IMG/VR virus record: IMGVR_UViG_3300035698_020735
Span: 1-20,938 of that record
Source: a virus
Direction: 5' to 3' (one strand)
DNA length: 20,938 nucleotides
Shown here in pieces: positions 598 to 19,934 of the stretch. Numbering within the stretch: position 1 is the stretch's first letter; every line of letters starts with the position of its first letter. The position numbers and the translations under genes were made by a program. The notes under the pieces were generated by a model. The model worked only from the letters and a program-made list of their open reading frames with translations, made no database searches and had not been told where the DNA came from.

Positions 598-2427
598 ATG
601 ATAAATCAATTAAGAAAACAAATTAAAGAAGCAAATGAATCATATAGAATAGGTAATCCTATTTTATCTGATTCAGCTTATGATTTGTTAATAGATCAAT
701 TAACAGAACTTAATCCGACTGATGAATTACTTTCTGACGTTGGTCATAATGTTTCTGGTAATCCTCGTAAAGATTTATTACCTATTACGATGGCATCTAT
801 GAATAAAATCAAAACAATGCAAAATGTTTCTGATTGGTGTAGGTTAAAAAATATTTATGAAGCTGACGTTGTTATTTTAACTCCCAAATTTGATGGACTA
901 TCGCTTTGTGTTAGGGAATTAACTAATGAAGCATGGACTCGCGGAAATGGAGTTATAGGCCAAAAATCAGATGATCATTATAATTTAATTAGTAATAAAT
1001 TAATGAACTGCGATAATTTTGAATATACAATTGGTGAAGTTGTAATGAGAAAAGATATCTTCAACGAAAAATATTCTGAGAGATTTGCTAATTCTCGTAA
1101 TTTAGTTGCAGGATTATTAAATTCTAAAACACCAAGTGAAATTTTAGAAGACTGCGATTATATGAAATTTGGAGCTGTTCCGAGTATATCTTCTGACTTT
1201 AAAACGAAGGAAGAAATTTTAAATGACTTAAATAAAAATCAGGAATCAGCAATTCAATTTGAAATTTGTAAAATTTCTGATTTAACTGAAGAATTTTTAA
1301 TTGATACTTTCGCTAAGTTTTCAAAAACATATGAAATTGACGGTATCGTTATTGAAATAAATGATTTATCTGTACAGAATAAATTAGGAAGGGAAACTTC
1401 TTCAAAGAATCCTGTATGGGCTCGCGCATATAAGCACTCTTCATTCGAACAAAGTGCTATAACAAAAGTTATCGGAATTACTTGGAATATTTCTAAACAA
1501 GGTTATTTAAAACCAGTTCTACAAATTGATCCAGTAAAATTAGATGGTGCTACCATTTCAAATGTTACAGGTTATAACGCTCGATTTATTAAAGATTCTG
1601 GATTAGGAGTTGGGGCTGAGGTTTTAATCAAAAGAAGCGGTATGGTTATTCCAGTTATCGCTGAAGTTATAACAACCGTTGAATTTGTTTTACCGGATGT
1701 TCCAAATATTGATTGGAGTGAAAATGGTGTTGAGCTATATACATTAGAAGAAACTGAAGCTCAAAGATTAAAAATGAATATTTCATTTTTTAGAATCTTA
1801 GGAACAGAAAATGTATCAGGTGGAACATTCAAACAATTATGGGACTCAGGATATCAAACTGTAAAAGATATTATAAATCTTACTGAAGCTGATTTAGAAA
1901 AAGTTGATAGATTTGGAAAAAGAAAAGCTTCTATTGTTTATAAGTCAATTCATAAATCAATTTTAAATGTTCCATTAAATAGGTTACAACATGCTACTTC
2001 TTTATTTAAAGGATTAGGTAGTAAAAAATTAGCTTTATTAGAACATTTTAAAACTAAGCCATCTGTTGAAGATATTATGAAGTTAGATGGTTTTTCAATA
2101 ACATTAGCTGAGGCATATATTAAATCTTATGATTTATTCTGGGATTTCATTTCTGAATTACCAGTTACAATTGCTGAAAAGACTGAAATTAAATTAGAGT
2201 CTACTGATTTAGTTGAAAATATATTTGTATTTACCGGAGTTCGTAGAAAAGATTTAAATGAAATTATTGAATCAAGAGGTGGTACAATCGGTTCATCTGT
2301 ATCTAAAACAACAACATATCTTGTAATGAAAAGTGTTGGGAGTGGATCGTCCAAAGAAGTTAAAGCTAATAAATTAGGAGTTAAGGTTATAACGGTAGAA
2401 GAATTAGAACAATTATTAAATGTATAA
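598..2427 (+). CDS. ligA: NAD+-dependent DNA ligase
   Basis: This 609-residue protein seals nicks in duplex DNA using NAD+ as AMP donor and presumably acts in phage replication and repair. Domain Ia (about 1-55) keeps the NMN-binding style segment SDSAYD. The adenylation motif is KFDG with catalytic Lys97; motif III is GEV at 146-148, followed by FANSRNLVAG, matching bacterial FANPRNAAAG. Motif IV is DGIV (248-251) and motif V is WARAYKH (274-280). An OB fold spans about 282-360, helix-hairpin-helix repeats about 396-515, and a C-terminal BRCT domain about 536-609. Bacterial LigA has a four-cysteine zinc finger between OB and HhH; here that stretch (about 365-395) has none, and no Cys occurs after residue 224. 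At 609 residues it is shorter than the usual bacterial 650-700. The ATG at 598 immediately precedes domain Ia, so the start is secure. Confidence 0.95.
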   Translation: MINQLRKQIKEANESYRIGNPILSDSAYDLLIDQLTELNPTDELLSDVGHNVSGNPRKDLLPITMASMNKIKTMQNVSDWCRLKNIYEADVVILTPKFDGLSLCVRELTNEAWTRGNGVIGQKSDDHYNLISNKLMNCDNFEYTIGEVVMRKDIFNEKYSERFANSRNLVAGLLNSKTPSEILEDCDYMKFGAVPSISSDFKTKEEILNDLNKNQESAIQFEICKISDLTEEFLIDTFAKFSKTYEIDGIVIEINDLSVQNKLGRETSSKNPVWARAYKHSSFEQSAITKVIGITWNISKQGYLKPVLQIDPVKLDGATISNVTGYNARFIKDSGLGVGAEVLIKRSGMVIPVIAEVITTVEFVLPDVPNIDWSENGVELYTLEETEAQRLKMNISFFRILGTENVSGGTFKQLWDSGYQTVKDIINLTEADLEKVDRFGKRKASIVYKSIHKSILNVPLNRLQHATSLFKGLGSKKLALLEHFKTKPSVEDIMKLDGFSITLAEAYIKSYDLFWDFISELPVTIAEKTEIKLESTDLVENIFVFTGVRRKDLNEIIESRGGTIGSSVSKTTTYLVMKSVGSGSSKEVKANKLGVKVITVEELEQLLNV

Positions 2428-3463: not shown

Positions 3464-3498
3464 AGAGGCTAAATATATATAAAAAACATTATAGCTTT
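3464..3498 (+). promoter_or_regulatory. TATATAAA motif inside a weak inverted repeat before the TTG start
   Basis: TATATAAA lies at 3476-3483 in the 44-base gap after the HAD gene. It is flanked by AGGCTA (3466-3471) and TAGCTT (3492-3497), a 6-bp stem with one G-T wobble that ends at the TTG start codon of the next gene. The motif matches those at 2840 and 15469. Candidate promoter or leader structure; the stem is short and could be chance. Confidence 0.3.
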
Positions 3499-4086: not shown

Positions 4087-5736
4087 ATGTCATTTAACCT
4101 ACAAGAATATATTCTTTTTAGAAGTGAATTAAAAAGAGAACTTTATAATAACGAAGTTGATAGTAATTTTAAAATGGTTGCTAATCCTTGGTCAGAGGAA
4201 AGAACTTACGAAGAAGGTAATGTCGTTTATCACCCAGTTGTTATAACTACAACTGATATAACCGGATCCCCTTTAACAGAAGAGGCATTAGCATGGTGGA
4301 GAGCTAATACAAGATCAACTCGTGGTGTTTTCGATACAGATGAATGGGATTTAATTGGAGGAGTAGGTTCTGGTGATATCACAATAGAATCATCACCCGG
4401 ATTTGGTAAAGTTATTTTGAATTATACTGGAGCAACTGGTGGATTTATTTCTACTAATGATGGAACATTAGCAGCATCTTCACCTAATGATATATTCAGA
4501 TTTATTGCTGGTTCAGGAATGTCTTTACAATATGATGTTACAACAAATACAATTAAATTTATAAACACTGGATCTTTAGGGCAATCAAATATTGGAGAAA
4601 CTCTCGGAACTGGTACACATGAAGATATTTATACTGGAATGGATGGCGTTAAATTAACATTTAGGGGATTAGCAGTAGGCGCTTTAAGTAGTTCTGCGCT
4701 ATCTCTTAACCTTAATGCAATTACAAATAATCTTGAATATAGTTTAAACGAAGCTACGATAAGTTTACAAAATCTTAATAGTGCACAATCAACAGCTGAT
4801 ATGATATCTGATATTAGTTATGGCGCAGGTTTAACAAATAATAATGTATTAATCTGGAGTGCATCAGCTGGTAAATGGGTTCCTTCAACAATTCCAACTG
4901 GAGCACAAGGCGCGCAAGGAGCGCAAGGTATATTAGGTATACAGGGAACGTTCGGTACACAAGGTATACAAGGTATAACTGGAGTTCAAGGAATTCAAGG
5001 TATAACTGGAGTTCAAGGAATTCAAGGTATACAGGGAATTCAAGGAATTCAAGGTATACAGGGAATTCAAGGTATAATTGGATCACAAGGTATACAAGGT
5101 ATAACTGGAGTTCAAGGTATACAAGGTGTTACCACTGACATACCTTCTATATTTACTCATTCGATATTTTTTAAGACGGGTTTACCTAATTATAGAACAA
5201 CTGATGATGTTATGATTGGCGGTTTAGCAGCTGAAGGTGGATGGGCAGCAAATATTTGGGATAAATCTACAGGAACTATTGCGGATTTAACATTAGCTAT
5301 ACCTTTATTAAGTTTAGAAGATGTTAATATGGGTATTCCATTAATAGAAGATATATCAGCTGATATTGGTAAACAATTAGTTATTCGTTTAGCATTATCT
5401 GTGCCATGGTCAACTGGCGATGTCACTGATACTTTAGTAATATGGGCAGGAAAATATAGTCTTAATGATTTTGTTGCATCTAGTAGTAATTTAATATTAC
5501 AAAGATTAGATAATATAGGAGGAGGCGTTCATGGTGTTTATTTAACGAGTCCTTTAACATTACAAAATAGTGAATATTGGTATGTATATGAAGATATCAT
5601 ATTTGAACTTGATAAAGAAGATTTTACTGCAGACACAGACAGATTACTTATAGGGTTTGGATCAGGTAATGGAGAAGCATTAGTAGCAGGTACTTCAGTT
5701 ATAACATATAAAGCGTGGATTAGAGATTCAATTTAA
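4087..5736 (+). CDS. Tail fibre-like protein with collagen-like segment
   Basis: This 549-residue protein has three parts. The N-terminal part (about 30-95) includes Y-E-E-G-N-V-V-Y-H, then AWWRANTRSTRG and DEWDLIGG, which resembles small carbohydrate-binding modules of the chitinase type (CBM5/12-like). A Gly/Ser/Asn-rich beta region follows. Residues 272-348 are 25 consecutive Gly-X-Y triplets, mainly GIQ, GIT and GVQ, a collagen-like trimeric stalk with no proline. The C-terminal part (about 350-549) is beta-rich with Trp and Tyr clusters and is a likely receptor-binding or trimerisation head. Such Gly-X-Y segments are typical of phage fibres. I infer a surface-exposed host-recognition fibre. 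The ATG at 4087 follows an A-rich leader with no SD. The head matches no family I can name. Confidence 0.75.
   Translation: MSFNLQEYILFRSELKRELYNNEVDSNFKMVANPWSEERTYEEGNVVYHPVVITTTDITGSPLTEEALAWWRANTRSTRGVFDTDEWDLIGGVGSGDITIESSPGFGKVILNYTGATGGFISTNDGTLAASSPNDIFRFIAGSGMSLQYDVTTNTIKFINTGSLGQSNIGETLGTGTHEDIYTGMDGVKLTFRGLAVGALSSSALSLNLNAITNNLEYSLNEATISLQNLNSAQSTADMISDISYGAGLTNNNVLIWSASAGKWVPSTIPTGAQGAQGAQGILGIQGTFGTQGIQGITGVQGIQGITGVQGIQGIQGIQGIQGIQGIQGIIGSQGIQGITGVQGIQGVTTDIPSIFTHSIFFKTGLPNYRTTDDVMIGGLAAEGGWAANIWDKSTGTIADLTLAIPLLSLEDVNMGIPLIEDISADIGKQLVIRLALSVPWSTGDVTDTLVIWAGKYSLNDFVASSSNLILQRLDNIGGGVHGVYLTSPLTLQNSEYWYVYEDIIFELDKEDFTADTDRLLIGFGSGNGEALVAGTSVITYKAWIRDSI
4900..5130 (+). repeat. Tandem repeat encoding collagen-like Gly-X-Y triplets
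   Basis: This stretch of 231 bases is built from 9-base units such as GGAATTCAA, GGTATACAA and GGTATAACT. Longer blocks recur; the 27-base block starting GGTATAACTGGAGTTCAA occurs twice in direct succession and in part again near the end. Near-identical units favour slippage in steps of nine bases, which would change stalk length without breaking frame. Open frames on both strands here are by-products of the repeat. Confidence 0.9.
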
Positions 5737-13121: not shown

Positions 13122-13964
13122 ATGTCAAAATTAACATCAAAAGAATTAAAAAGTGATAATTTAAAAGATACTCAATGGATAGGTATTGTTGAAGATACTG
13201 TAGATGATTCATATGAAGGTCGATGTAAGATAAGAGTATTTGGCAAAATGGATCAACGAACAGATCCTGGTGATCAAAGTAGTGCTTATGTTTTACCTAC
13301 TAATATTTTACCATGGGCTAGACCTGCTACTTTACAATCAGGTGGTAGTAATAGTGGTAGTGGTATTTTTTCAATTCCAAAATTAGGTTCAGTATTAAGA
13401 ATAACTTTTGATAATGGAAATTATTACTTTCCAATATATCATGAAAATATTTATCCATCAGATGAAGTAAAAGCAGAACTACAAAATTCATATGGAAATT
13501 CCCATATGCTTATATATGATACTGCTTTCGGATTAAGTGCTGGAGATAATGGAAATATTTCAAATGAACGTGAAAACGAAAGCATTAAAGTTTTCTTTAC
13601 TGAAGAAATGGGTTTAATGATGGATTATGCTACTAAAGAAGGCTCAACTTCAATTAATATAAAACCTGATAATAGTATAGAACTTAAAAATCCAAATGGA
13701 GATTCTATAGTAATGTTAAATGACGGTACTACTAACATAACATGTAAGAATTCAAATGTCATTTGTGAAAATATGGTCATTGATCATTCTAAATCAATTG
13801 AATTAGGCAAGGGTGCACAAGAGAAACTTGTATTAGGTAATTCCTTTATGACATTATTTAATTCACATACTCATATTGGAAATATAGGTGCACCTACAAG
13901 TCCACCCGTAAAGCCTATGACTCCTGTTACTCATTTAAGTAAGAAAAATATAAAAACTAAATAA
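13122..13964 (+). CDS. Baseplate spike protein (gp5/gpV-like), no lysozyme domain
   Basis: This 280-residue protein is the membrane-piercing spike. An N-terminal OB fold (about 15-110) contains WIGIVEDTVDD and CKIRVFGKMD and, further on, IPKLGSVLRITFDNGN. A repetitive beta-helix region follows (about 175-240: SINIKPDNSIELKNPNGDSI and on). The C-terminus has NSHTHIGNIGAPTSPP with His249-x-His251, the motif that binds a metal ion at the spike apex in P2 gpV and related tips. T4 gp5 carries a lysozyme domain between OB fold and helix; there is no room for one here, so peptidoglycan cleavage must come from another protein. The order hub - tube-like - spike fits contractile systems. Confidence 0.85.
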   Translation: MSKLTSKELKSDNLKDTQWIGIVEDTVDDSYEGRCKIRVFGKMDQRTDPGDQSSAYVLPTNILPWARPATLQSGGSNSGSGIFSIPKLGSVLRITFDNGNYYFPIYHENIYPSDEVKAELQNSYGNSHMLIYDTAFGLSAGDNGNISNERENESIKVFFTEEMGLMMDYATKEGSTSINIKPDNSIELKNPNGDSIVMLNDGTTNITCKNSNVICENMVIDHSKSIELGKGAQEKLVLGNSFMTLFNSHTHIGNIGAPTSPPVKPMTPVTHLSKKNIKTK

Positions 13965-14226: not shown

Positions 14227-14272
14227 TTTTAAGTTTATGTATATAATAACTGTTATAACTCTTAAACTAAAA
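14227..14272 (+). promoter_or_regulatory. Bulged hairpin directly before the S1-like gene
   Basis: TTTTA-A-GTTTA (14227-14237) pairs with TAAACTAAAA (14263-14272): ten pairs with one bulged A. The structure closes a 25-base loop that contains TATATAAT (14240-14247) and the palindrome GTTATAAC. It ends three bases before the ATG at 14276. A structured leader on an S1-type gene could give autoregulation, as known for E. coli rpsA, but this is inference. Confidence 0.4.
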
Positions 14273-14275
14273 ATA

Positions 14276-15421
14276 ATGATTGAACAAAAAATTACAATTC
14301 AAAATGGAAATGATCCATTAGACACTTACGAAATTATTGCAACCGTTCCAAATGACGTAAAAATATTATCAACTGAACCTGATGTCATAGAAAAAATGGC
14401 AATGTATGGTATATCAGATGAGGATATTAAGTCAGTTAATCAATGTGAATTACAAGATACTAGTATTGTGCGAGGCATAGTATCATCTCTCGATAATCAG
14501 AAAACTAAAGCTTATATTGATATTGGATCAAAATATACTGCTACTTGCAATTTAAGTAAAGAACCTGAATATGTATTAGAACAATTGGCACCAGGTTTAC
14601 AGGTTGATGTTAAATTAAAAAACGATCAAGCCGGTAATATTTATGCCTCTATAATAGATGCATTAAATGAAGGAATTCATAATAATATTCTGGAATCTAT
14701 TGGAGATAAATCTGTTGGATTTACTGCAAAAGTTAAAGAACTTATTTATGGTGGATATTGGTTGAATATTAGCGGAATTACATGCTTTATGCCAGGTTCA
14801 TTAGCCGGTCTTAATAAATTACATGATTTTGAATCATTAGTTGGTAAAGAAATTATTGTTATGCCAATTACATATTCTCGTAGCAAAAATACAATTGTAG
14901 TATCACACAGAGAGTATCTTACTACTCTTATTCCTGGAGCAATTGAACACGTTAAAGAAAACGATAGAGAAATGTATACTGGATTTGTTACAGGTACTGC
15001 TAAATTTGGAGTATTCGTTGAATTTAATAAATGCTTAACTGGATTAATTCCTAAAGATGATTTAGATGAGAAAACTCTAAAACGATTTGAAAATAGAGAT
15101 ATTAAACCAGGAGATGACATGTCATTTTGGTTAAATGAAATTCTATCAGAGAAAAAAATTATTCTTACTCAATTAGGCCCTAGAGAAAATATATGGGATA
15201 CTGCTGATGAGAAATACAAACCTATGATGGTTACAATAGGTACCGTTACAAAAGTAACGGCTTATGGTGCTTTCGTAGAATTAGAAAAGGGAATCAGTGG
15301 TCTTATTCATAAATCTAAATTAAGAAACTACGAACCTGTTAGAGGAGAACGTATCAGTATTAAAATTCAAAGCATTAATACTTCTAGTAAACGAATAACT
15401 TTAGCACTCCCACTCACATAA
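14276..15421 (+). CDS. Ribosomal protein S1-like RNA-binding protein (four S1 domains)
   Basis: This 381-residue protein has four S1 (OB-fold) RNA-binding domains at about 62-128, 147-212, 231-300 and 316-378. The last two are the clearest: TGFVTGTAKFGVFVEFNKCL with GLIPKDDL, and GTVTKVTAYGAFVELEKGIS with GLIHKSKL, both ending in the usual strand (KKIILTQL, KRITLALP). The layout resembles the central domains of bacterial bS1, which docks mRNA on the 30S subunit and unfolds structured leaders. At 381 residues it is shorter than six-domain bS1. I start at 14276, not at the ATG at 14237, because the extra 13 residues lie inside the leader hairpin and add no domain. It sits between spike and amidoligase genes and is followed by a strong terminator. 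Confidence 0.9.
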   Translation: MIEQKITIQNGNDPLDTYEIIATVPNDVKILSTEPDVIEKMAMYGISDEDIKSVNQCELQDTSIVRGIVSSLDNQKTKAYIDIGSKYTATCNLSKEPEYVLEQLAPGLQVDVKLKNDQAGNIYASIIDALNEGIHNNILESIGDKSVGFTAKVKELIYGGYWLNISGITCFMPGSLAGLNKLHDFESLVGKEIIVMPITYSRSKNTIVVSHREYLTTLIPGAIEHVKENDREMYTGFVTGTAKFGVFVEFNKCLTGLIPKDDLDEKTLKRFENRDIKPGDDMSFWLNEILSEKKIILTQLGPRENIWDTADEKYKPMMVTIGTVTKVTAYGAFVELEKGISGLIHKSKLRNYEPVRGERISIKIQSINTSSKRITLALPLT

Positions 15422-15450: not shown

Positions 15451-15494
15451 AAGATATCTGATTTGAAATATATAAACAAATCAGGTATTTTTTT
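15451..15494 (+). terminator. Strong intrinsic terminator after the S1-like gene
   Basis: AAGATATCTGATTTG (15451-15465) pairs with CAAATCAGGTATTTT (15477-15491), 15 pairs with two G-U wobbles, loop AAATATATAAA. The stem merges into seven T residues (15488-15494) that end at the ATG of the next gene. It lies 29 bases after the S1-like stop. The loop contains TATATAAA and the second copy of the 18-base repeat (15466-15483). The next gene thus needs read-through or a promoter within the element. Confidence 0.75.
15466..15483 (+). repeat. 18-base intergenic repeat with TATATAAA, copy 2
   Basis: This sequence is identical to 2837-2854 (aaatatataaacaaatca). Here it forms the loop and part of the right arm of the terminator hairpin. 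Both copies lie shortly upstream of a start codon (2862 and 15495). TATATAAA is at 15469-15476. Confidence 0.4.
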
Positions 15495-16790
15495 ATGTAT
15501 TCTAACGAACAGCTTAATGCTATATATGCTTCAAAAATTGGATTTGAGTTTGAATTCTTTTCTAATCAAGATCTAAATCTTACTAAAGAATCTTTATCTA
15601 ATGCTTTAAATAAAAAAATTAGAGTAGAAGAAAAGGCGCATAGTAACTTTACACCAACCGATACATTCTTCAAATTAGAGCCTGATAATTCAGGCGGTTC
15701 TGGAATGATTGAACTAGTAACTGGCGCAATGCCATTTGTTGAGTCCAAATTAATGTTAGCTAAGACATTAAAATGGATCAAAGAAAATGGCAGCACTAAT
15801 GATAGATGTTCAATTCATGTTAATATTTCATTTGATGGTAAAAAATTAGGCCCAAGTTTAAATATGACAAATTTAGATGTTGGAAAATTTGTACTTAATT
15901 TTGATGAGAATAGGGTATATGAAGAATTTCCAAATAGAAAAAATTCTGTATATGCTAAATCGATTAAATTTATTTTACCATTAAACGGAATGATCCAACC
16001 ATCATCAGAACAAGTTTCATGGAAAAATTATATGTTTGCTAATGAAAAATATTATGGCATTAATTTTACAAAAGTGCCTAAAGGATATATCGAATTTCGT
16101 TATATAGGTGGTGCAGATTATGAAAACCGATATAATTCAATATTATCATTAACAGAACATTTTGTAACATCATTATACGATGTATTAGAATATCCAAAAT
16201 ACACGGATAAAGATGTACAGAAATTAAACAAAGTTCTTGAACATCACAAACATATTATCAAATCATATAAATCATATGAAAACTTCCAACAAGAATTTCC
16301 TAAAATAAATTTAATGGTTGATCTACAAACTGCAGATTCAATTATTAAAATGTATTATCCTAAGATAAGAGAACAAATATTTGATTTAGTTACAAAGGCT
16401 GAGATGACTGAAGGTTTAATTAACTACGACAGTGATATTGGCAAAATTCAAATTAAAGATGCAACTCTTATGCAATGTTTTGAAATTAAAAACATCGACA
16501 TAATTGATTGTAAAATTCAAGGGAATATTAAAAAATGTGATATCTTTACATCAGAAATATTGAATTCATCAATGTATGAATGTAACTTATTTGATAATAG
16601 TCAAGTAAATGATAGTAAAATAGAAGAATCTTATGTTAGTAGAGATATTTTATGTGAAGACTCATATGTTTTCGGTAGGAGAGGGGTATTTAGTGGAGAA
16701 ATGAAAGGTGGAATATTTCGACAAGGGAGAGCTACTAAATTTGCTAAATTTTCTAATTGTGAGATAATTGAAATAGAAAAAATTAAATAA
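15495..16790 (+). CDS. Amidoligase-like enzyme with C-terminal beta-helix-like domain
   Basis: The 431-residue protein has the signature of the glutamine synthetase-like amidoligase family (Amidoligase_2 type): GFEFEF near the N-terminus (16-21), LEPDNSG and IELVTG (61-77), CSIHVNIS (105-112) and YIEFRYIGG (198-206). These carry the acidic and His residues that bind Mg-ATP and substrate in that family, whose members join a carboxylate to an amine. A helical part follows (about 210-310). Residues about 317-428 are a repetitive strand pattern rich in Cys, Ser, Asn and Ile (DCKIQGN, KKCDIF, SEILNSSMYECNLFDNSQV), suggesting a beta-helix or pentapeptide-like fold. The substrate is unknown; peptidoglycan-like peptides or protein tagging are possibilities. 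The ATG directly follows the T-tract of the terminator. Confidence 0.7.
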   Translation: MYSNEQLNAIYASKIGFEFEFFSNQDLNLTKESLSNALNKKIRVEEKAHSNFTPTDTFFKLEPDNSGGSGMIELVTGAMPFVESKLMLAKTLKWIKENGSTNDRCSIHVNISFDGKKLGPSLNMTNLDVGKFVLNFDENRVYEEFPNRKNSVYAKSIKFILPLNGMIQPSSEQVSWKNYMFANEKYYGINFTKVPKGYIEFRYIGGADYENRYNSILSLTEHFVTSLYDVLEYPKYTDKDVQKLNKVLEHHKHIIKSYKSYENFQQEFPKINLMVDLQTADSIIKMYYPKIREQIFDLVTKAEMTEGLINYDSDIGKIQIKDATLMQCFEIKNIDIIDCKIQGNIKKCDIFTSEILNSSMYECNLFDNSQVNDSKIEESYVSRDILCEDSYVFGRRGVFSGEMKGGIFRQGRATKFAKFSNCEIIEIEKIK

Positions 16791-16791
16791 C

Positions 16792-17634
16792 ATGGCATAC
16801 GCAAACTGTTCATCAGAAGATGATCTACAATGTTTAGATGCATTGATCAAAGAAATTAATGATGAAATGACAATAGGTTGTCAACTACCATTTACAGTAC
16901 CTAAAAAAGAAGTCGCAAGAATTATTGGCCAAGCGAAGAAATGGTTTTATAAAAATTATGAGGATAGTGTAGAAGAAATATATCTTGCATTACCTGCAAC
17001 AACGTGGGAATCTGATACATTTTCGAAAGGGATTACTACTGATAGTGAAACTTTGTCATCTTCTAATGTAAATAATACTAGAGGTATTGTTTTAATGCCA
17101 TCATCTGTAATTTCAGTAAATGGTGTTTATGAAGTTGGTAAATTTTCAGGTGAAGATGGTGGATTTGGTTCTTCTTCATTTTCATATGGTGATTTTGATA
17201 TGTCAATAGATAAGTTTATATACTCAGATGTTTATGGAGGTGGTATAGGTTCAGAACAATTAATGTATTATGTTATTAATTCAAAATACATTGATAATGC
17301 TAGACAGATTTTACAACACCCCTTATCATTTTCATATAATCGCTTAAATAAGAAATTTAGATTCCAAGGTCAATTTCCTAAAGGTGCTTGTGTTTTTCAA
17401 GTGTATAACAGTATTGCAGATTGTAGTTTATTTGATGATGAAATATTTTACAGATATTGTGTAGCTAAAACAAAAATTCAATTATCAAGAATTTTAGGAA
17501 CCTTCTCGTTTAACTTACCGGGTAACATTACAATAAATTATGATATTTTAGCAAGTGAAGGTAAAGAAGAGTTAGATGCTATACTAGAGGAAATTAAAAC
17601 TGATGAGGGTGTAAATTATTTTCTCACGAGCTAG
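16792..17634 (+). CDS. Virion structural protein, 280 aa
   Basis: The ATG at 16792 is one base after the previous stop. The N-terminal part (10-60) is helical and contains MTIGCQLPFTVPKKEVARII, the centre is Gly/Ser-rich (about 115-155), and the C-terminal part reads LNKKFRFQGQFPKGACVFQV and then KIQLSRILGTFSFNLPGNIT, ending in an acidic helix. Beta-rich segments with aromatic residues around a Gly-rich loop are typical of phage structural proteins. Placement directly before the gp25-like gene supports a baseplate or neck role. I do not recognise a named T4 counterpart. The 63-base gap downstream holds a special ribosome binding region. Confidence 0.6.
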   Translation: MAYANCSSEDDLQCLDALIKEINDEMTIGCQLPFTVPKKEVARIIGQAKKWFYKNYEDSVEEIYLALPATTWESDTFSKGITTDSETLSSSNVNNTRGIVLMPSSVISVNGVYEVGKFSGEDGGFGSSSFSYGDFDMSIDKFIYSDVYGGGIGSEQLMYYVINSKYIDNARQILQHPLSFSYNRLNKKFRFQGQFPKGACVFQVYNSIADCSLFDDEIFYRYCVAKTKIQLSRILGTFSFNLPGNITINYDILASEGKEELDAILEEIKTDEGVNYFLTS

Positions 17635-17667: not shown

Positions 17668-17700
17668 AGGAGAATATATATTAAAAGAATATTCTCAATG
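17668..17700 (+). promoter_or_regulatory. Hairpin-spaced ribosome binding site of the gp25-like gene
   Basis: AGGAG (17668-17672) is the only good SD-like sequence near a start in the window, but it ends 25 bases before the ATG at 17698. Between them GAGAATAT (17670-17677) pairs perfectly with ATATTCTC (17689-17696), ending one base before the ATG. Folding would bring AGGAG close to the start, though it also pairs part of it. T4 gene 25 is known to use a hairpin between SD and start. Confidence 0.5.
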
Positions 17701-18074: not shown

Positions 18075-19934
18075 ATGTCATTTTTCAGCAAATCGAGAAT
18101 AAAAGCTACTGAATTATTTTATGATGCATTTGTTTATTTACAAAAAACATATGATCAATCAAGAGAAGTGTTTAGTCCATCATCACCATTTGGTCAACTT
18201 TTAACAGTTATCGCAAATTTAGGCGAAATGATATTTTATTATATTGAATCATCTATTACGGAACTTAATATATCAAGAGCACGTAATATTGAATCAATTT
18301 ATGGATTATCGAGGTTAACGGGTCATGATCCATCTAGAGGAATATCTGCAAGGGGAGTTATTGGTTTAAAACTTAATACTAAAGCTTCAACTTTATTAAA
18401 CGGAAACTATGTACAAATTTTAAATGGAGCCGAAATAGAAATGGGAAATAATGGATTGACTTACTTCCTTAATTTTGACAGTGATTTTATTAGACTTGAA
18501 AAAGGAAATGTTAAATTTACAAACGTTGAATTGATCCAAGGTGAATCTGAAACTCAAAAATTTACAGGAACAGGTTTAACATTACAAAGTTATAATGCCA
18601 TAACGAAAGATATGACAGATAATAATATCATCAAAGTTAAAGTAGATGGTGAACTTTGGAAACGTGTAGATTCTATTTATGATATGAATAATAATGAAAA
18701 GGCATATCTTTGTAAAACTAGTATAACCGGAGGTTTAAGTATATTCTTTGGCACTAATCAATTTGGAATACCACCTGCACTAGGTTCAATTATTGAATTA
18801 ATTTATATTAAGACCAGAGGAGTAGCTGGTAATATTGGTGGCAAAAATCTTGATTTAAAATTCAAAGAAGCAGGCACAGATCAAACCAGTGACTCAATTG
18901 ATCTTAATGAAATATTATCGTTAAGTATTGTTAGAAACCCTTCATTTGGTTCTGATGGCGAAGATCCTAATTTTACGCGTATAATTGCACCATATCAAAG
19001 TAATTCATTTGTTTTAGCAAATCCGAATAATTACATTTATTATTTAAGTAAGTATGATTATTTTTCTTTCATTGATGCATATAATACAAAGGATGATGAA
19101 TATATTGATGATAACAATATCATATACTTATCATTAATACCAGATATTAAAAAGAAATTAACAAGTGATGTTGATTATTTTTCAATAGCACAAGAAGAAT
19201 TTGTAATGACTGACGATGAAAAAGATCAAGTATATGATATATTAAATAATAGTGGAAGACAAGTTATTACAGCAGAAACTAGAATCGTTGATCCTATCAT
19301 TAAAAAATATGTAATTAATATTGTATTAAGATATTATGAAACTGCTGATAAAAATACAATACAAACTGAAATAAGAAGTAGATTAAATGAATATTTCTTA
19401 AATGTAAGTAGAAGAGATAATATTCCAAGATCTGATTTAATTGCAATAGTCGAAAGTGTAGATGGAGTTGACTCTGTTAATATCTTCTTTATATCAGAAG
19501 AAAACGAAACTGCAATTAAGAATGGATATTATTATGTACCTGTTTATGGAACAGATCCTGCAACAGATCAAAAAACATTAATAGAAAATAAAAAGATAGT
19601 CTTGACAACTAACGAAGATCCTCAATTAGGCTTAGATGGATTCGGTGATATCACAATAAAAAAAGGAGAAATTACAATAATTAGAGGAGGGTTCGAAGAT
19701 AGAAACGGTAATGAATATCTTGAAATACCAACCGATAATAAAATAAGTTCTCTTAATATATTCTTTAAAGATGTTGTTGCTAGTGATCTTTATAATAAAA
19801 CTCAACAGGCTAAGTTTAATGCTATTAAAAGAAATAAAGGCACAACTATAGCAACCGGGTCAAATGCAAAAAGTACTAACACTGGAAGATTACAAAGTAA
19901 TTCTGCAGTTAAGTCATTAAAAACAAGTAATTAA
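18075..19934 (+). CDS. Baseplate wedge protein gp6/BaseplateJ-like
   Basis: This 619-residue protein follows the gp25-like gene by 14 bases. The N-terminal 75 residues are helical (TELFYDAFVYLQKTYDQ) and FSPSSPFGQLLTVIANLGEM is the dimerisation-type segment. Beta regions follow around 90-260 with VKVDGELWKRVDSI and GVAGNIGG, typical of the BaseplateJ family (T4 gp6, P2 gpJ). A second part (about 395-490) reads ITAETRIVDPIIKKYVINIV then RRDNIPRSDLIAIVESVDGV, the conserved J domain that ends the wedge protein. The C-terminal 40 residues are Ser/Thr/Lys/Asn-rich and likely disordered. gp6 forms the wedge ring that controls sheath contraction. The assignment is based on family pattern and neighbours. 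Confidence 0.8.
   Translation: MSFFSKSRIKATELFYDAFVYLQKTYDQSREVFSPSSPFGQLLTVIANLGEMIFYYIESSITELNISRARNIESIYGLSRLTGHDPSRGISARGVIGLKLNTKASTLLNGNYVQILNGAEIEMGNNGLTYFLNFDSDFIRLEKGNVKFTNVELIQGESETQKFTGTGLTLQSYNAITKDMTDNNIIKVKVDGELWKRVDSIYDMNNNEKAYLCKTSITGGLSIFFGTNQFGIPPALGSIIELIYIKTRGVAGNIGGKNLDLKFKEAGTDQTSDSIDLNEILSLSIVRNPSFGSDGEDPNFTRIIAPYQSNSFVLANPNNYIYYLSKYDYFSFIDAYNTKDDEYIDDNNIIYLSLIPDIKKKLTSDVDYFSIAQEEFVMTDDEKDQVYDILNNSGRQVITAETRIVDPIIKKYVINIVLRYYETADKNTIQTEIRSRLNEYFLNVSRRDNIPRSDLIAIVESVDGVDSVNIFFISEENETAIKNGYYYVPVYGTDPATDQKTLIENKKIVLTTNEDPQLGLDGFGDITIKKGEITIIRGGFEDRNGNEYLEIPTDNKISSLNIFFKDVVASDLYNKTQQAKFNAIKRNKGTTIATGSNAKSTNTGRLQSNSAVKSLKTSN

Follow-up and report, generated by a model that had tools for sequence, protein, structure and literature searches.

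Organization of the locus and domain structure of the S1-like protein

The window, a 20.9-kb virus contig of 20,938 nucleotides, carries late genes of a contractile-tailed phage. Situated on its plus strand at positions 14276–15421 is a gene for a bS1-like protein of 381 residues, which is composed of four S1/OB domains according to profile, structure and PDB matches. The gene is preceded by that of a gp5-like baseplate spike/hub protein of the lysozyme family (13122–13964, plus strand). It is followed on the same strand by a gene for a 431-residue protein without assigned function (15495–16790), a head-tail adaptor Ad2-like neck protein (16792–17634) and, after a gp25-like protein of the baseplate cluster starting at 17698, a gp6-like baseplate wedge protein (18075–19934). 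The position between spike and wedge genes given by the earlier sequence-only reading is thereby confirmed. A collagen-like protein with many GIQGIQ-type repeats, which is variable in relatives and probably a tail-fibre-like protein, is encoded at 4087–5736, and scans of the window for Rfam families and tRNAs were empty.

An ATG at 14237 leaves the S1 reading frame open upstream of 14276. The start at 14276 is favoured, since relatives share this N-terminus (M[IT]EQEITIQ...) and since the alternative ATG abuts a conserved TATATAA box.

With the Pfam S1 profile alone, two stretches of the protein were matched, corresponding to D3 and D4 only (62.7 bits, above the cut-off), and D1 and D2 were detected only with full-length bS1 profiles. 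NCBIfam full-length bS1 models cover residues 48–378 in domain order with a top score of 134 bits, and in the PDB, E. coli bS1 was matched with E = 1.5e-27, residues 53–378 aligning to residues 12–346 of bS1. A profile of 38 members of the phage family gave E = 2.2e-50 against E. coli bS1 and E = 2.3e-44 against a bS1 of 591 residues (9zcd). The AlphaFold2 model of the 381-residue protein (mean pLDDT 82.6, pTM 0.58) displays strand sets near residues 64–125, 149–210, 233–298 and 319–377, and the top Foldseek matches are bS1 chains in 30S mRNA-delivery and 100S structures (6.7e-23 to 1e-12). Domain pairs superpose well, with a TMt of about 0.7 for D1–D2 against bS1; the placement of the domains relative to each other is unreliable in the model, as reflected by a whole-chain TMq of about 0.35. 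The product of 14276–15421 is a four-OB-fold protein colinear with D1–D4 of bS1, far beyond chance. The four domains read from the sequence are borne out by bS1 profiles, PDB match and model alike, and the proposed Pfam search and structural comparison with bS1 returned D3 and D4 by Pfam and bS1 as the best Foldseek match.

The N-terminal element (residues 1–46, 14276–14413), predicted to form a strand hairpin (2–9 and 17–24) and a short helix (37–42), occupies the place of the N-terminal anchor of bS1 and is well conserved in the lineage, with a mean majority frequency of 0.73. It is followed by D1 (about residues 63–130, 14462–14665), which has the lowest conservation of all domains (0.59), and by D2 (residues 145–213, 14708–14914), which has the highest (0.81) and displays a bS1-type GG..V...G..xF.PGS motif. 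Both C-terminal domains, D3 (residues 229–300, 14960–15175) and D4 (residues 318–381, 15227–15418), lie, like the preceding elements, on the plus strand. Within D4, the aromatic and histidine RNA site is retained, Tyr330, Phe333 and His345 being invariant in the lineage, whereas Pro259 replaces the canonical RNA-site histidine in D3.

Previously, it was shown that bS1 is anchored to the ribosome by an N-terminal helix which stacks on uS2, and by Asp39 and Lys43 of D1 (PMC4288201). The latter two residues, which contact the zinc pocket of uS2 and form salt bridges with this protein, align with Asp82 and Lys86 of the phage protein; both are nearly invariant in the lineage, and not both are retained in every Mahaphage or Lak copy. 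Moreover, a helix motif of the phage family, [E/K]-S-[FY/H]..xL (E-S-[FY]-type), aligns with the uS2-anchor helix of bS1. Tyr44 of this region is invariant in an alignment of seven phages; the protein of the window has an aspartate at position 36, that of the first aromatic residue, and the model is of low confidence at residues 51–61. D4 of bS1 is thought to contact mRNA at −12 to −15 in Bacteroidota (PMC6847099). The features of the docking side and of D4 fit a ribosome-bound mRNA catcher, although as similarities in sequence they prove nothing.

Comparison with ribosomal protein bS1 (rpsA), including that of Bacteroidota, revealed a shared D1–D4 order, D2 motif and Asp39/Lys43 equivalents, and a similar N-terminal helix motif from which the window protein departs at position 36. 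In contrast to bS1, the phage protein has a phage-specific N-terminus, belongs to a separate clade and scores below the curated NCBIfam rpsA cut-offs (368–918 bits), the best score of 134 bits being reached where the cut-off is 624. Furthermore, E. coli bS1 has six domains as opposed to four in the phage protein. A nuclease or transcription factor is ruled out: bS1 models score 65–134 bits compared with about 41 for PNPase and about 36 for RNase R, both through single domains, and the top structures are bS1 on ribosomes. Profile and Foldseek searches of the 381-residue protein found no catalytic or partner domain beside S1 of the kind that marks RNase R, PNPase, Tex or NusA. The tight match to a nuclease, which had been named as the outcome that would speak against a bS1-like identity, is thus absent.

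Conservation of the neighbourhood, phage relatives and host

A single-sequence scan of IMG/VR with S1 gave no matches, and an alignment query retrieved at least 533 relatives of S1, the best 80 of which were used. Among these 80, one gene order is found: spike, S1, 15495, neck, gp25, wedge. Because the first relatives had been found with S1 itself, the neck gene served as an independent bait; at the neck-baited loci with sufficient upstream DNA, S1 is present in 71 of 71, at the expected distance and on the expected strand in 70. In LR756500.1, a huge phage of 462 kb, synteny extends across the whole module and S1 is 41% identical. The 431-residue protein encoded downstream of S1 shows about 56–72% identity in most relatives and is present, unlinked, in Mahaphages.

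Outside this lineage the arrangement is not kept. In Lak-A1 and in Mahaphages of 634–735 kb, S1 orthologue and wedge gene are more than 100 kb apart (437.7 kb versus 279–281 kb in Lak-A1, 684 versus 575 kb in LR756501), and within 20 kb of S1 neither wedge nor hub homologues turned up in these phages. Due to this lack of linkage, the location among baseplate genes appears to be a habit of the lineage and not a functional requirement, and a functional tie of S1 to the baseplate is unlikely. Likewise, bS21 was rejected as a fixed partner, being present in four Mahaphages but absent from LR756500 and Lak-A1.

In a tree of 25 rows, the phage S1 proteins (17 rows from this lineage, four Mahaphages, Lak and LR756500) are separated by a branch of 100/100 support from eight bacterial-type bS1 proteins, a small bacterial sampling. 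On the sequences, the S1 of the window belongs to one phage-only clade together with those of Mahaphages, up to 735 kb in genome size, and Lak. The wedge protein ranks every S1-bearing huge phage above S1-free phages with named hosts, which is consistent with S1 having been acquired once, by the ancestor of the phages that carry it. Two of the Mahaphages (L006, 8800–10674; L007, 8792–10654) carry, about 10 kb from S1 and on the opposite strand, DNA ligases to which the NAD-dependent ligase of the window (598–2427) is 60% identical.

For Mahaphages, hosts among the Bacteroidetes have been predicted (PMC7162821), and most wedge relatives whose host is named are phages of Bacteroidota. Taken together, these two lines suggest that the host of the window phage is probably a member of the Bacteroidota. 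The S1 proteins of Lak-A1 (P0007) and of one relative (L089) start with an F[ND]W-type N-terminus, as does a Bacteroidota bS1 (L179) whose gene is 81% identical at the nucleotide level to rpsA of Bacteroides finegoldii. This motif hints at an origin of the phage S1 from bS1 of Bacteroidota. However, the tree fails to place the phage proteins beside Bacteroidota bS1, so that such an origin stays a lead. A scan of genome contigs matched two MAG contigs and no host bS1. One of them, ONCO01000010.1, assigned to an 'Erysipelotrichaceae' MAG (L090), carries S1 at 44% identity and, on the opposite strand, gp25-like and wedge homologues, and is for this reason probably a mis-binned phage contig.

Phage-encoded rpS1 has been described before. 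Al-Shayeb et al. 2020 (PMC7162821) reported it in huge phages and proposed a link with non-SD starts; with these phages, Mahaphages and Lak, the lineage of the window shares the S1 clade and the missing SD motifs, and differs in the fixed position of S1 in the baseplate cluster. LR756500.1 matches the lineage in both position and neighbours. Microcystis phage PhiMa05/MaAM05 likewise encodes bS1 (PMC13157829), but as a separate, host-type acquisition (Vampirovibrio-like) located beside ispH, bL21 and bL27 and outside this clade. An S1 motif protein of Virus NIOZ-UU157 (A0A7S9STL2), known as a database entry only, was matched in the structure search with 54% identity over the full length (E = 6.5e-51). 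The S1 of the window is a real, conserved phage bS1 and represents a new lineage of an already described kind.

Translation starts, promoter-like boxes and a hairpin

SD-like motifs were found at none of the 18 starts of the window, compared with 60% of T4 starts by the identical method, in agreement with the sequence-only reading that almost all starts lack them. That reading had taken their absence to make a dependence on S1-type mRNA binding likely, an argument which does not hold for the phage S1. In the records of PTm1, MaF61, PAU, pT24 and MA9V-1, related Bacteroidota-type phages with homologous wedges, an S1 domain was found nowhere, and SD motifs occur at 2.7% of 183 starts. The share is 2.4% in six huge phages that carry S1 (210 starts), and both values are close to what shuffling of the respective set leads one to expect. 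The A-richness at −14 to −11, a region coinciding with the presumed mRNA contact of bS1 D4 in Bacteroidota (PMC6847099), is equal in both sets. Bacteroidota themselves are described as not using SD (PMC6847099, PMC9976891), the latter source portraying their ribosomes as hiding the anti-SD. Since S1-free relatives are equally SD-less, such starts track the host phylum and give no evidence of a need for phage S1, and S1 was discarded as their explanation. The argument drawn from the published correlation between rpS1 and non-SD starts in huge phages (PMC7162821) is weakened accordingly, as Bacteroidota hosts alone can explain this correlation. SD-less starts are shared by related phages that carry S1 and by those that do not, which provides a natural comparison.

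Located on the plus strand 36 nt upstream of the S1 start is the box TATATAATAA (14240–14249), a putative late promoter of S1. A TATATAA-type box is present at −45 to −10 of S1, mostly at −39 to −34, in 51 of 55 distinct relatives, where 13.3 are expected. Lineage-wide, 275 such boxes lie near starts versus 53 after shuffling, the sequences being related and not independent. Enrichment near starts was also seen in Mahaphages and T4, and was not found in PTm1, MaF61, PAU or pT24. Boxes of the type ATATATAAA at 2839–2847, 3475–3483 and 15468–15476 end 14–19 nt upstream of gene starts, and in the relatives (L010–L089) this box is enriched at −37 to −20 of starts. Their spacing suggests late promoters with very short leaders. 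A generic terminator/promoter scan of the window was uninformative in such A/T-rich DNA.

Among the starts checked, the sole standout in folding is a 15-bp hairpin with the loop AAATATATAAA at 15451–15491 of the plus strand (−17.3 kcal/mol, z = −2.9), which ends 3 nt before the start at 15495. Stems of at least 8 bp are found in 68% of 41 distinct relatives versus 2.8% with a shuffled arm, and the hairpin covaries, with several pair types at most stem positions and a fixed loop. The loop holds the late-promoter-like box TATATAAA. Of the hairpins said to abut several late starts, including that of S1 itself, only this one stood; those at 17698 (z = −0.58) and at the start of S1 (z = −0.95 or +0.99) are not significant, and the idea that S1 unfolds a hairpin at its own start falls with the latter. 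The read-through mRNA of T4 gene e conceals its start by folding, whereas transcripts initiated at the late promoter are devoid of the 5' arm and stay open (PMC3014915). By analogy, the hairpin at 15451–15491, with the promoter-like box in its loop, looks like a switch of the gene e type, in which a late promoter lies inside an inhibitory hairpin. Because the gene e arrangement needs no S1 to open, the hairpin can be explained without S1.

Possible roles of the phage S1

A takeover role of S1 is a plausible hypothesis; neither the missing SD motifs nor the hairpins can be counted in its favour. Our leading explanation, held with slightly more confidence than doubt, is that of a phage-owned bS1, made late, which docks on the host 30S subunit and catches SD-less late phage leaders. 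The protein would be an old copy of host ribosomal protein S1, trimmed to D1–D4, which gained a phage-specific N-terminus. Its production late in infection is suggested by the conserved promoter-like box preceding the gene. Docking could occur via the N-terminal helix and D1–D2 on the uS2 side, as in bS1, while D3–D4 may catch leaders which, in the abundant late mRNAs of the phage, are A/U-rich and SD-less, so that the phage S1 would supplement or replace host bS1. The bS1-like domain order, the helix motif, Asp82/Lys86, retention at all 71 loci and the S1 gene's own TATATAA box speak for this explanation, as do the bS1 matches in profile and structure searches, the D2 motif, the RNA site of D4, the single phage clade and the A-rich region at −14 to −11. 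Against it count the low conservation of D1, the main docking domain, the aspartate at position 36, the lost D3 histidine, the unmet rpsA cut-offs and the fact that related Bacteroidota phages manage without S1 and show the same start-site features.

The weak conservation of D1, next to strongly conserved D2–D4 and new N-terminus, would be expected of a bS1-derived RNA-binding protein acting off the ribosome, as a chaperone or stabiliser of phage mRNA or as a co-factor of its decay, much as host bS1 serves T4 RegB or Qβ replicase. S1 domains are frequent outside ribosomes (PMC6375957), and extraribosomal roles of bS1 with phages are known (PMC13157829). However, the N-terminal helix motif and the Asp39/Lys43 equivalents persist, and the domain order is wholly bS1-like with no other functional domain fused, which makes this alternative rather unlikely. 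The same predicted docking side, in combination with four domains instead of six and the loss of the D3 histidine, could also belong to a dominant-negative competitor, which, by occupying the place of bS1 on uS2, would stop host translation instead of aiding phage mRNA. We regard this as improbable, since a late-type promoter box and a location in the structural cluster mismatch early host shut-off, and since a pure blocker would not need the invariant RNA-binding residues of D4. Least probable is a virion or baseplate component or assembly factor: the invariant gene order at 71 of 71 loci of the lineage would suit it, but the distant position of S1 in Lak and the large Mahaphages does not, and the protein has no structural-protein homology.

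A more far-reaching form of the ribosome-bound explanation is that an ancient phage bS1, with its own N-terminal docking element, takes the place of the host protein on 30S subunits of Bacteroidota at a late stage of infection and thereby favours late phage mRNAs, which might be initiated at TATATAAA promoters only a short distance from the AUG. We put this forward tentatively, as possible but doubtful. If true, the exchange would amount to a ribosome variant made by a virus, in a phylum without SD use. It bears on the question of whether phages build altered ribosomes, as the lineage keeps bS1 as a core gene of its late module, S1 being present in every complete neighbourhood examined.
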